Of a stretch of DNA of 64,000 nt, positions 6,480 to 53,879 are shown one piece after another. The DNA is from Alicyclobacillus mali NBRC 102425. GTDB lineage: Bacteria; Bacillota; Bacilli; Alicyclobacillales; Alicyclobacillaceae. Within the stretch, counting starts at the first letter, position 1. Every line of letters starts with the position of its first letter. A program made the position numbers and the translations under genes. The stretch spans positions 1 to 64,000 of the forward strand of contig NZ_BCSG01000023.1 of NCBI RefSeq assembly GCF_001570745.1, in the 5' to 3' direction. The notes below the pieces were generated by a model. It had not been told where the DNA came from. It did no database searches and saw nothing but the letters and a program-made list of their open reading frames with translations.

Positions 6480-6974
6480 TCAGTGTTCGATGTGCGCTTC
6501 CAAAAACCACAGGTCCTGATCCAACTGCCTCGAGACCTCGGTGAACAAGTCTGCGGTGTCCGAATCGTGCTCCTCCGACTCCTCGATGAACTTGCGCGCC
6601 TCGTTGGCGACGACGGCCCAGCGATCCGCCAGCGCCTTGAGCACTTCGACGTCCTTCGTGACGGACAGGTCCCATTTCGGAAGCTTCGTCTGCGCCGCGA
6701 GGTCCTGAATCGGCAGCCCCGCCACGCCGCCGAGCGCCGTCGCCCGCTCCGCCACATCGTCAATGGCCTCGACCAGGTGAGCGGCGAGCGTGTCGAGCAT
6801 CTCGTGATACGACAAAAAGTGAGGACCGCGGACATTCCAATGCGCGAGCTTCGTCTGGTTCCAAAGATCCGTGAGATGCACGACATGCGTGTTGAGGAGC
6901 TCAATCATCCGCCTTTTGACGTCGTCAGCGAGATCGATGCGCGTGCGCTTCAACTGGGAGACGTTCGTAGCCAT
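6480..6974 (-). CDS. dps: Dps-family ferritin-like DNA-protection protein
   Basis: A 164-residue four-helix protein of the Dps family. The ferroxidase motif is seen as LAHWNVRGPHFLSYHEMLD followed by HLVEAIDDVAERATALGG, giving the inter-subunit His/Asp/Glu iron site. Family role: dodecamer that oxidises and stores iron and shields DNA under peroxide or starvation stress. ATG at 6974 has GGAGGTG six bases upstream. It has its own promoter and terminator, so it is monocistronic. Confidence 0.93.
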   Translation of the reverse strand: MATNVSQLKRTRIDLADDVKRRMIELLNTHVVHLTDLWNQTKLAHWNVRGPHFLSYHEMLDTLAAHLVEAIDDVAERATALGGVAGLPIQDLAAQTKLPKWDLSVTKDVEVLKALADRWAVVANEARKFIEESEEHDSDTADLFTEVSRQLDQDLWFLEAHIEH

Positions 6975-7045: not shown

Positions 7046-8284
7046 TCATGCCTCGATGAGGCGTAACCATCGCGCCACAAGGGGCGTGGTACTCGCCTGG
7101 ACCAACAACGTGATCAGCACGGCCGTCGCTGCCACCTGTGTGAAGACCTGCGCACCCGGGATCCGCGCGCCCTGCACCAGACCAGCGAGCGCAATGGCGA
7201 TGGTCCCCGTCTCGCGCACCCAGAAGAAAAAGGCGATTTCGCGCCAGCTCCACTTCGCCTGCCGATCCGGCAAGAGACTCGCCAGCACCGTCAACGGGCG
7301 CGCCACAAGCATAAACACGGCGACCACGATGAGCGCGACCCCCACGTGTTGCGCCAACAACCGCAGGCTTAACTGGCTGCCGAGCGAGATGAAGATCAGC
7401 ATGCGAAACTGCAGCGACATTCCGTCCACAAATCCCTCGAGCAGCGCGCGCGCCGGCTCTTCCACCCTTGGCCATCGCTTCGGCGCATGAACGAGAGCCA
7501 TACCGGCCACAAAGCTCGCCATGAAGCCACTGGCGCCGAGTTGGGCGGCGCTGGCATAGCTGCCAAGCGCCGCGAGCACAAGATACAGCGAACGCCCCCC
7601 CGGTGTCGGAGGCGCGTACCGGCTGATGAGCCATGCAGCAGCAAGCCCAAACGCAGCGCCAATCACGGCTCCCCCCAGGGCGAGCCGCGCGATTTGCCCG
7701 ACGAGATCGCCTGCACTCACGTGCGTATCAGCGCTGGCGGCCATCACCCGAGTCAACACCAGCGCCGTCAACATGGCGCCCGTGGCGTCCGTGAAGGCGG
7801 ACTCGGCGATCACGGCCTGCGCCACCCGCGCGCGGATGGACAGGCGCTGAAAGATGGGCACGAGCGAGGCGGGATCCGTCGAGGCGAGCAGCGAGCCCAA
7901 GAGGAGCGCCGACAGCATGGGAAGCCCCAGAGCCACATGTGCGGCGACGCCGACGACCGCGGCCGTGATCGCCAGGCCGAGCGTGGCGAGAAGGAGCACG
8001 GACAGCCAGATGCGGCGCAGGACCTGAAACCGCATTTCGAGCCCGCCCTGAAACACAATCCAAGCTGCGCCGAGCGAGAGGACGGCGTCGTGAAACGCCC
8101 CGCCTTCGGGGATGCGCAGCACGTCGAGGGCCGAGGGCCCGAGCAGGAAGCCTACGAGGACGTGCAGCACGATGTCGGGCAGGCGCAACCGCTCGGCCAA
8201 CCGCGAGGCGAGAGCGCCGGACGCGAGCATGACAAAAAGCGCGAAGAGGTACGATTCCGCAACCTGCAGAGGATTCGACGCCAT
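7046..8284 (-). CDS. Cation/proton antiporter (CPA family)
   Basis: A 412-residue polytopic membrane protein with about 12 hydrophobic segments. Conserved CPA1/CPA2 blocks include VLHVLVGFLLGP near the start, FQGGLEM, LGSLLASTDPASLVPIF and AESAFTDATGAM (the ion-site Asp in a TD motif). Family role: electroneutral exchange of Na+ or K+ for H+, relevant for pH homeostasis. ATG at 8284 follows GGAGGTG. The 5' leader contains a terminator hairpin (see separate entries). It lacks a cytosolic RCK domain, unlike the antiporter near 53 kb. Confidence 0.87.
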   Translation of the reverse strand: MASNPLQVAESYLFALFVMLASGALASRLAERLRLPDIVLHVLVGFLLGPSALDVLRIPEGGAFHDAVLSLGAAWIVFQGGLEMRFQVLRRIWLSVLLLATLGLAITAAVVGVAAHVALGLPMLSALLLGSLLASTDPASLVPIFQRLSIRARVAQAVIAESAFTDATGAMLTALVLTRVMAASADTHVSAGDLVGQIARLALGGAVIGAAFGLAAAWLISRYAPPTPGGRSLYLVLAALGSYASAAQLGASGFMASFVAGMALVHAPKRWPRVEEPARALLEGFVDGMSLQFRMLIFISLGSQLSLRLLAQHVGVALIVVAVFMLVARPLTVLASLLPDRQAKWSWREIAFFFWVRETGTIAIALAGLVQGARIPGAQVFTQVAATAVLITLLVQASTTPLVARWLRLIEA

Positions 8285-8392
8285 CGAGCACCTCCAAAAC
8301 GCGAAAAGGAGCCTGTCGTTTGACAGACTCCACCTGTGTTCTCGCGAAATTCAGTTCGGACTCGCCAAGCGTGTCGGCGACGGTCCACTTCC
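8285..8392 (-). promoter_or_regulatory. Antiporter mRNA leader with two hairpins, possible attenuator/riboswitch
   Basis: From the predicted transcription start near 8386 the leader first folds into a hairpin with GGAC/GUCC and UCGCC/GGCGA paired segments, then into a strong intrinsic terminator before the ribosome site. Because the gene upstream is divergent, the terminator can only act on this mRNA. The class of RNA is not recognised. Confidence 0.5.
8304..8331 (-). terminator. Intrinsic terminator inside antiporter leader
   Basis: Ten-base-pair stem (8308-8317 with 8322-8331, one G-U pair) and loop of four, then TTTT on the minus strand. It sits 20 bases before the ATG at 8284, so it would switch off the antiporter unless an alternative fold forms. 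Confidence 0.75.
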
Positions 8393-8421
8393 TTTATACA
8401 GGAAAGAGGCGGCCTCGTCAA
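8393..8421 (-). promoter_or_regulatory. Promoter of the antiporter leader
   Basis: Minus strand TTGACG (8421-8416), 17-base spacer, TATAAA (8398-8393); close to the vegetative consensus. Confidence 0.75.
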
Positions 8422-8511: not shown

Positions 8512-9417
8512 ATGAGCTTCTTGCACCTTCTGTGGACCATCACGGTGCCGATTGTGGTGGTCTGCGCCGCAGGCGCGATTGTGGCGCGATACCAGGATGT
8601 CGAGACGAGATCGCTCTCCACCGTCGCCTTGTACCTGTTGGCGCCGGCGCTCATCCTGTCGGCGCTGCCCACGGCCAACCTGCGTGGCGATCACGTCGTG
8701 CAAATTGTGGCGTTCACCGCAGCGATGACGGCGTTTTGCTGGTTGGCGGCGTGGATGGCGGGCCGCCTGTTTCGGCTGGATCATCCGACCTCGCGCGCAC
8801 TGATGCTGACGACCATCTTCAGCAACTCAAACAACTACGGGCTGCCCGTGCTGCTTTTGGCGTTCGGCACGCAGGGGTTCGCGCTCGGGACGCTCTACGT
8901 CATCCTTCAAATTCTCCTCGTGAACACCCTCGGCGTGTCCATCGCGGCGAGTGGGCGCGCCGAAGGCAGCGGCTTCAAGGCGCTGTATCGGTCACCGCTG
9001 CTTTACGCGAGCGCGCTGGGTCTTGCGTTGTCGCTGGTTCACCACGCCCTTCCGGGCGGCCTAGGCACGGCGGCCAAGCTGCTGGGAGACGCATACGCGG
9101 CCGTCGTGTTGCTCATTCTGGGCGTGCAGCTCGGGCGAACGCGCTGGTCTGCGGCCTTGCAGAGGGACGTATGGCTTGGCGTCGCGCTGCGCGTCGTCAT
9201 AGTGCCAATCGCGGCGAAAGGGTTGCTCATGGCGCTCGGCATCCGGGGCCTGCTCGCGTCCGTCTTGTTCGTCGAGGCGAGCATGCCGGCCGCCGTCAAC
9301 ACGGTCGCGCTCGCGAGCCGCTTCGGCATGGCGGAGGAATGGACGTCGATGGTGGTGGCGGTGACGACCGCCCTTAGCTTCGTGTATCTGCCCGTCGTGA
9401 TCGCGCTCAGCCACTGA
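8512..9417 (+). CDS. AEC (auxin efflux carrier)-family transporter
   Basis: A 301-residue membrane protein with about ten hydrophobic helices arranged as two halves, typical of AEC permeases (YfdV/malate-type carriers). Characteristic blocks are SNSNNYGLPV in the middle and EASMPAAVNT near the C-terminus, both with helix-breaking residues. Substrate unknown; the family moves carboxylates or auxin-like acids. ATG at 8512 gives the normal N-terminus but a weak ribosome site; a GTG at 8443 with AGGAG upstream would add 23 hydrophilic residues. A 12-bp palindrome (ACGAAGCTTCGT, about 8470-8481) lies between the two divergent promoters. Confidence 0.85.
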   Translation: MSFLHLLWTITVPIVVVCAAGAIVARYQDVETRSLSTVALYLLAPALILSALPTANLRGDHVVQIVAFTAAMTAFCWLAAWMAGRLFRLDHPTSRALMLTTIFSNSNNYGLPVLLLAFGTQGFALGTLYVILQILLVNTLGVSIAASGRAEGSGFKALYRSPLLYASALGLALSLVHHALPGGLGTAAKLLGDAYAAVVLLILGVQLGRTRWSAALQRDVWLGVALRVVIVPIAAKGLLMALGIRGLLASVLFVEASMPAAVNTVALASRFGMAEEWTSMVVAVTTALSFVYLPVVIALSH

Positions 9418-52400: not shown

Positions 52401-53879
52401 TCACGGCAGCGCCTCCGCACGCCCCACCTGATCCTCCCGAAACAGCCGCTCCAGATCGCCGACGGCGCCTTCGTGGGCCAGAACCAGCAGGTGATCTCCA
52501 GCTCGGATGCGCGTGCTCCCGCGCGGGACGACGGCCTTCCCGTCGCGCACGACGGCGTAGCACAGTGTGTCGGCTGGAAAGGCGAGATCGCGCAACCTCT
52601 TGCCGGCGCTCGGCGATCCCGGCGCCACCTCGATGGGCACGACGACAGCGGCCTCCCGCGCGACGGCGAGCAACTCGCACATCGACTCCGACGGGGTGGC
52701 CTGCACGAGCCCCAGCTTTTCGGCGAACCACTGCACCGTCATCCCCTGAACGAGCGCGGAGACCAGCACCACGAAAAAGATCACTTCCACGAGTGCGATG
52801 TACCCCTGGACGTGTGCCTCGACGGCAAACAGCACGAGGACGATGGGCGCAGCGCCGCGCAAGCCCGCCCAGGCGATAAACCAGCGCTCGTCGGCGCTCA
52901 GTCGGAAAAAGAGGGTCGTCAGCCACACGGCGGCCGGGCGGGCCACAAAGATGGCGCCGCACGCGAGGAGCAGGCCGGGCACGGCGACGTCTGCAAAGTC
53001 GCGCGGGACGAGGAAAAACCCGAGCACGACGAACATGACAATCTGCACGATCCAGGCGAGCCCTTCGTGGAAGCGCAGCACCGCCAACCGCTCTTGCATC
53101 CGCGCGACCGCCATGGCGACGCCGGTCAGGTACACGGCGAGAAACCCGCTTCCCGACATCGACTGCGCGACGCCGAACGACAGAAGCGCCATCGCCAATG
53201 TCACGGCAGGATAGAGGCCCGGTGTGTCGAGCCGCGCCACGGAAAGCAGTTTGCGCCCGAGATAGCCTGCCACGAGCCCCACGCCAAGGCCAACGCCCAT
53301 CTGCTCCACGAACAGGACGGCCACGTCCATTGGATGCATCCCGCTCCCTCCGATGCGGGCGAGATCGATCAAAACCGTCATGAGGAAGAAGGTCATCGGG
53401 TCGTTGGTGCCGGACTCCACTTCGAGCACGTCGGCCAACCGCTCCCTGAGGGACGTGTTGCCGAGCGCGCTGAAGACACTGGCGGCGTCCGTCGAGCTCG
53501 CCGCGACGCCCAACATGGCGCAGGACAGCCAGGGCAGGCGCAGGACAGCGTGAGCAAGCGCGGTCATGATGGCGCTTTGCACCAACACGCCGAGCGTGGC
53601 CAAGGACATCGCTGGCCAGAACGCGCGGCGCACCCGCGCGGGCGTGGTGTGCAGCCCGCCATCGAAGAGAATCATCGCCAACGCGAAGTAGCTGAGGTTG
53701 GTCGCCACACCCGGAGACACCGCCGTGAGCAAATCCGGGTCCAGCGCGGCGATGGCGCAGCCGAGCGCAACGAACCCCACCATCGCCGGAAGCCCCACCC
53801 GGCTGTGAGCGCTCGCGATAAAGACGCCGGAAAGAAGCACCACCGCCACCACGACGCTCGCGACACTCACCACGCTCAT
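52401..53879 (-). CDS. K+/Na+:H+ antiporter with C-terminal RCK domain (NhaP2/CvrA-like)
   Basis: 492 residues. About 12 membrane helices with CPA1 motifs AMILFDGGLHTT, GVAASSTDAASVF and EVESGTNDPMTFFL (ion-site Asp), then a cytosolic TrkA-C type domain (residues about 400-480, APGSPSAGKRLRDLAF…IRAGDHLLVLA) for ligand gating. The start ATG overlaps the stop of the MarR gene (ATGA), so the regulator and antiporter form one operon. Confidence 0.9.
   Translation of the reverse strand: MSVVSVASVVVAVVLLSGVFIASAHSRVGLPAMVGFVALGCAIAALDPDLLTAVSPGVATNLSYFALAMILFDGGLHTTPARVRRAFWPAMSLATLGVLVQSAIMTALAHAVLRLPWLSCAMLGVAASSTDAASVFSALGNTSLRERLADVLEVESGTNDPMTFFLMTVLIDLARIGGSGMHPMDVAVLFVEQMGVGLGVGLVAGYLGRKLLSVARLDTPGLYPAVTLAMALLSFGVAQSMSGSGFLAVYLTGVAMAVARMQERLAVLRFHEGLAWIVQIVMFVVLGFFLVPRDFADVAVPGLLLACGAIFVARPAAVWLTTLFFRLSADERWFIAWAGLRGAAPIVLVLFAVEAHVQGYIALVEVIFFVVLVSALVQGMTVQWFAEKLGLVQATPSESMCELLAVAREAAVVVPIEVAPGSPSAGKRLRDLAFPADTLCYAVVRDGKAVVPRGSTRIRAGDHLLVLAHEGAVGDLERLFREDQVGRAEALP

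Follow-up and report, generated by a model that had tools for sequence, protein, structure and literature searches.

A conserved leader motif with an embedded terminator precedes Na+/H+ antiporter and salt-stress genes in Alicyclobacillus mali and other Bacilli and probably acts as a cis-regulatory switch

In the window (the whole 64,000-nt stretch analyzed here, positions 1 to 64,000 of contig NZ_BCSG01000023.1 from Alicyclobacillus mali NBRC 102425), a minus-strand gene (7046..8284, ATG at 8284) encodes a 412-aa CPA1-type Na+/H+ exchanger, presumed to be the regulated gene. Its product matched the Pfam family Na_H_Exchanger (PF00999; E = 9.9e-54), and its best NCBIfam match was a potassium/proton antiporter model, with a score below the family cut-off. 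A Dps/ferritin-like gene (6480-6941, minus strand) lies 3' of the antiporter on the same strand. The original prediction, made from the sequence of this locus, had placed a promoter ahead of the antiporter, and comparison with relatives bore this out: the predicted sigma-A-like promoter, read by eye, comprises a −35 box TTGACG (8416..8421, minus strand) and a −10 box TATAAA (8393..8398, minus strand) separated by a 17-nt spacer, and the region was alignable and kept in four relatives, with TATAAAGG/TATACAGG conserved at the −10 position. The predicted transcription start, likewise read by eye, falls at ∼8386 and gives a leader of ∼102 nt. Along this leader, on the minus strand, lie an upstream box AACTGAATT (8348..8356; class consensus AAnUGAAUA, with class-wide enrichment) and, 13 nt further 3', a core GGTGGAGTCTGTCA (8321..8334; class consensus GGNGGAGnCUGyCA, nearly invariant in the class) that provides the terminator with its 5' arm. 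The terminator hairpin GGAGTCTGTC-AAAC-GACAGGCTCC (8308..8331, minus strand) has a perfect 10-bp stem and a 4-nt loop, and is followed by an interrupted U-tract TTTTCGCGTTTT (8296..8307, minus strand; class form UUUUUGC or UUUGUC/UGUC, then UUUUU) and an SD-like GGAGG. The distance from hairpin to ATG is 23 nt; a terminator close to the start codon had been predicted, and it proved to be conserved at orthologues. Since the upstream neighbor, a Mem_trans family transporter gene on the plus strand that begins at 8512, is divergent, as had also been claimed, the hairpin is part of the antiporter mRNA leader rather than of the neighbor's 3' end.

Judged from the locus alone (promoter, hairpin and fold), the case is weak. 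A mechanical consensus scan of the window listed neither the antiporter promoter nor the terminator, apparently because of a TATAAA without T6 and the interruption of the U-tract, which is weaker in the window than the average of the class. The leader fold had a moderate advantage over shuffled sequences (−38.4 vs −30.5 kcal/mol; z = −2.4; 2/200 shuffles). The leader of about 100 bases that had been proposed stands, but its fold is not the part that is conserved, and sequence comparison indicates that conservation, rather than folding energy, places the window hairpin beyond chance.

The hairpin is single copy in the host genome, which rules out a generic repeated terminator. Two further Na+/H+ exchanger paralogues are encoded in this genome; a paralogue within the window (52698-53852, minus strand; 29% identity, 503-aa open frame) is without the leader motif. 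Alignment of the leaders of homologues, a check put forward with the original prediction, showed that promoter and hairpin are kept at orthologues within the genus while the remaining leader sequence changes, and the hairpin persisted at orthologues down to 43-48% protein identity. In a scan of the family, the hairpin was found in 10 of 41 genomes, every time ahead of this antiporter orthologue, with zero matches to a reversed control pattern in the same 41 genomes. The motif is absent ahead of antiporters in most Alicyclobacillaceae and in many Bacilli. A separate aptamer in the 5' half of the leader (hairpin GGACCGTCGCC...GGCGAGTCC) was considered and dropped, distant members being without this half. 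In a close relative, box, core and hairpin occur a second time (L259; genome G010, C1:216462-216526; GGAGTCTGTC...GGCAGACTCC), with U-A in place of the usual U-G pair and no antiporter gene behind them; this copy is perhaps a decayed duplicate.

A scan of 84,980 species genomes with the hairpin pattern gave 85 stretches. Of these, 53 led into four transporter clusters (37 NhaD-like/ArsB-like, 11 Na_H_Exchanger, 4 MrpA and 1 ClC), with members in Paenibacillus, Neobacillus, Brevibacillus, Cohnella, Sporolactobacillus, Thermoactinomyces, Alicyclobacillus and Heliobacterium. Nearly all transporter-linked matches were from Bacillota, and matches outside Bacillota look like chance. Chance matches are expected with such a pattern; the Bacillota matches converge on one function over unrelated protein families. 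A covariance model (R1; E ≤ 0.1 per genome) recovered the motif in 134 of 398 Bacilli genomes and 59 of 145 genera, with ∼40 of the 398 genomes expected by chance at this threshold and the best matches far below an E value of 1e-3. The core 14-mer alone gave 91 matches in 200 genomes vs 19 for the reversed pattern; among the additional 14-mer sites, 12 of 29 precede antiporters and the other 17 look coincidental. Viral contigs searched for GGAGGAGYCTGTCACCAAGGG gave no match.

Among R1 matches with a neighborhood, the downstream long open reading frame was a recognized antiporter in 54 of 80, and in 40 of the best 50. The families behind the motif comprise NhaD-like, CPA1, CPA2, MrpA, MrpE, DUF1646, ClcA, BCCT, SulP, KdpD-like and GpgS, the best match of the KdpD-like non-kinase gene being below the family cut-off. 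Proteins behind some copies have weak similarity to MpsC, so that MpsC-like genes are probably among those preceded by the motif. Sporomusa-like genomes carry copies ahead of NhaD-like genes, a CitMHS_2 transporter, an aminotransferase and a DapB-like gene, as well as a glucosyl-3-phosphoglycerate synthase that scored above its curated cut-off. In these genomes, GGAGACUGUCA variants (L148, L305, L307 and L300, L303) occur as several copies in one genome and precede the glucosyl-3-phosphoglycerate synthase (compatible-solute synthesis) and the aminotransferase. At several Paenibacillus-like loci (L210, L216, L231, L246) the first gene is repeatedly a universal-stress-domain protein, kin to the KdpD-like non-kinase potassium sensor and possibly an accessory factor of the regulon. 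Taken together, the genes behind the motif are Na+, pH and osmotic-stress genes, a set close to that of the Na+-I riboswitch (PMC9337991), and the pairing of Na+ transport with osmotic-stress genes that is typical of Na+-I was found here as well.

Across the class, the layout is AAnUGAAUA, 10-15 nt, GGNGGAGnCUGyCA, a variable 3' arm, UUUUUGC or UUUGUC, and then UUUUU. The box, ending 10-15 nt 5' of the core, was present in 69 of 148 leaders vs 2.1 (sd 1.5, maximum 7) in dinucleotide shuffles; this enrichment is a test of position against shuffles, the MAFFT alignment of the 5' part (A3) having aligned the box poorly. Spacing of the box is fixed relative to the hairpin while the distance to the promoter varies, and for this reason a reading of the boxes as sigma-factor elements was dropped. 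Conservation of the hairpin itself is one-sided. In 76 distinct matches that violate the search pattern, nine core positions were unchanged in 76/76, a figure to be read with the core partly fixed by collection (about half of the members came through the exact pattern and the rest through a model trained on it), whereas the 3' arm CAGGCTCC was retained in only 8 of 80. Arm pairs were tabulated by script, as alignment A4 left the 3' arms out of register; the covariance model puts equal weight on both arms, and matches were positioned by a core regular expression that one antiporter match failed. Pair by pair, the 5' letters are constant and the 3' partners drift (GC to GU, UA to UG, GC to GA), so that the 3' arm varies by wobbles, mismatches or replacement with longer nested terminators. 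On this sequence evidence the core appears to be conserved beyond what pairing needs. True compensatory changes were few (C-G/U-G/A-U/U-A at one pair and U-A/U-G/C-G at another), and support for the fold is for this reason mostly perfect complementarity. The search for another pairing that might provide an aptamer stem or an antiterminator gave none. A candidate pseudoknot, in which UGA in the box would pair with UCA in the core, was rejected, as the box does not change to match in members whose core has CUGCCA.

Many members have an additional 3' arm at a more distal site, which pairs with the 5' arm already used by the short hairpin and gives a long hairpin with another U-run (e.g., L212, L242, L168). 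In others (L197-L203, L211, L221), a copy lying further 3' pairs with the entire short terminator. Every nested version relies on the same 5' arm, as would be expected if an effector that removes this arm must defeat all terminators together. Two or three related terminators, each a GGAGCC...GGCUCC-type hairpin, also stand in a row ahead of one antiporter gene at some loci (L168, L118, L107/L184, L205).

A covariance search with the models of known riboswitches (nhaA-I, DUF1646 and ydaO), suggested with the original prediction, gave no match in the window leader, and these classes are excluded at the level of Rfam models. For that leader, Rfam 15 models gave no match, whether at gathering score or at E ≤ 10, and a whole-library cmscan of 18 member loci from other genera gave no match at the motif. 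The Na+-I model (RF03071) matched neither the window (gathering threshold; E ≤ 10 around the leader) nor the whole genome, and matched 2 of 151 Bacilli genomes. There was also no match of the Li+ riboswitch models nhaA-I and nhaA-II to the window or the 18 member loci, of the c-di-AMP (ydaO) model to the window leader or the 18 loci, or of the T-box model to the window leader. No description of the motif was found in the open-access literature searched, and the passages of PMC8632094 and PMC11109978 that contain the key words do not describe it. An earlier mention in subscription papers, preprints or supplementary tables is possible. The comparisons point to the antiporter-leader motif as a genuine cis-regulatory RNA element, widespread and with no entry in Rfam.

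We consider it probable, from the pattern of conservation, that the leader is a member of a conserved Bacilli class of cis-regulatory RNA, a terminator-embedded switch in which an effector captures the core. By default, the core would pair with the downstream 3' arm and transcription would stop ahead of the gene. The inducing signal would most likely be raised cytoplasmic Na+ or a linked pH or osmotic signal, since the gene products export Na+ or confer protection against salt. The effector would hold the core, and probably the upstream box with it, ahead of synthesis of the 3' arm, such that neither the terminator nor a nested second terminator could form and the antiporter would be made (an ON switch). 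The switch would thus probably activate sodium- and salt-handling genes upon disturbed cellular ion balance. Conservation inside the terminator beyond pairing, the mark of a terminator-embedded ON riboswitch, was observed in the form of a 5' arm that is kept and a 3' arm that drifts. The proposal of an ion- or pH-linked attenuator, perhaps of a new class, is supported in part by comparison, though the conserved part is the core with the AAnUGAAUA box and not a fold of ∼100 nt. More tentatively, and with somewhat less than even confidence, the motif may be a new minimal Na+- (or H+-) sensing riboswitch whose aptamer consists of the 5' arm of the terminator and the 9-nt upstream box, and which would be a main Na+-homeostasis RNA switch of Bacilli, where Na+-I riboswitches are nearly absent.

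Several known systems resemble the motif in part. The Na+-I riboswitch (DUF1646 motif, RF03071; PMC9337991) is likewise a predicted ON switch in a leader, in overlap with a terminator, and its genes overlap the present set (kefB/napA-like CPA2, DUF1646, other cation transporters and osmoprotection genes, e.g., dapB; PMC9337991). The architectures differ: Na+-I is built from two extended stems, P1 and P2, each containing conserved nucleotides, and the RNA described here from a single terminator hairpin plus a short box that is single-stranded. The Li+-I/Li+-II (nhaA-I, nhaA-II) and Na+-II riboswitches (PMC9646797) also control cation/proton antiporter genes, including nhaD, but differ from the present motif in architecture and had no Rfam match to the window or the 18 loci. 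HMP-PP (thiS motif) and guanidine-IV riboswitches (PMC6478431, PMC7736828), as described in PMC8632094, are terminator-embedded aptamers with conserved nucleotides inside the terminator stem-loop, in which binding prevents terminator formation to give an ON switch, as proposed here. The present motif differs from both in sequence and gene associations, and its conserved nucleotides lie in the 5' arm and the upstream box.

The strongest alternative is that the sensor is a protein: a putative RNA-binding protein would recognize AAnUGAAUA...GGNGGAGnCUGyCA in the nascent RNA and prevent the terminator from forming (or terminate transcription). Conservation is bipartite and mostly linear, with little conserved secondary structure apart from the terminator and a 5' arm constrained in sequence, all of which a protein-binding site could explain; since no alternative RNA pairing was found in cis, protein-mediated antitermination is nearly as likely as direct sensing. 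ANTAR, LicT/SacY RAT, HutP and TRAP provide precedents in which a conserved site in the leader RNA decides whether a terminator forms. To our knowledge, and in agreement with the Rfam scan, the sequences of those sites have no recognizable similarity to the present one. Unlike in those systems, no cognate protein gene was seen near the motif in the neighboring loci that were read, and the same site is used over many genera and several families. We regard the protein reading as a serious contender that is on balance rather unlikely, and slightly favor direct binding of an ion or metabolite by the RNA over an RNA-binding antiterminator protein.

It is improbable that the leader merely holds a constitutive terminator, a fixed attenuator lowering expression without sensing. 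A hairpin with a U-tract is indeed the ordinary form of an intrinsic terminator, but such an element would not need an invariant 5' arm or a distant upstream box, and the same sequence stands ahead of unrelated ion-transport families, where nested terminators reuse one 5' arm. The remaining readings fit poorly. That the dyad is an operator in DNA, bound by a transcription factor immediately 3' of the promoter, is suggested by the TGTCA-nn-TGACA-like symmetry of some members near the promoter but is very unlikely: the T run is on the downstream side only, symmetry is lost through changes in the 3' half with the 5' half retained, long members shift the 3' half 15-30 nt away, and the position of the upstream box follows the hairpin as promoter distance varies. 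Leader peptides and small RNAs are both known controls of leader terminators, but ribosome-mediated attenuation or pairing with a trans-acting small RNA is very unlikely here, given that the leaders have no start codon position in common (at most 15 of 148), that many leaders have only ∼25 nt ahead of the hairpin by predicted promoter, and that a 64-nt leader query had no complementary copy elsewhere in the genome.

According to the authors of the Na+-I study, just one Na+-responsive protein regulator had been validated, and many further control factors that sense Na+ must await discovery (PMC9337991). The motif described here precedes several unrelated kinds of Na+/H+ antiporter and osmotic-stress genes in about one-third of the Bacilli genomes that were searched, and Na+-I riboswitches are very scarce in this group. 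At ∼60-70 nt, it is short enough for direct work with purified RNA polymerase. If the genes are regulated as proposed, the motif would provide a single handle on the sensing of Na+, pH or salt stress in these bacteria, and hypothetical transporters and accessory genes would fall into one regulon.
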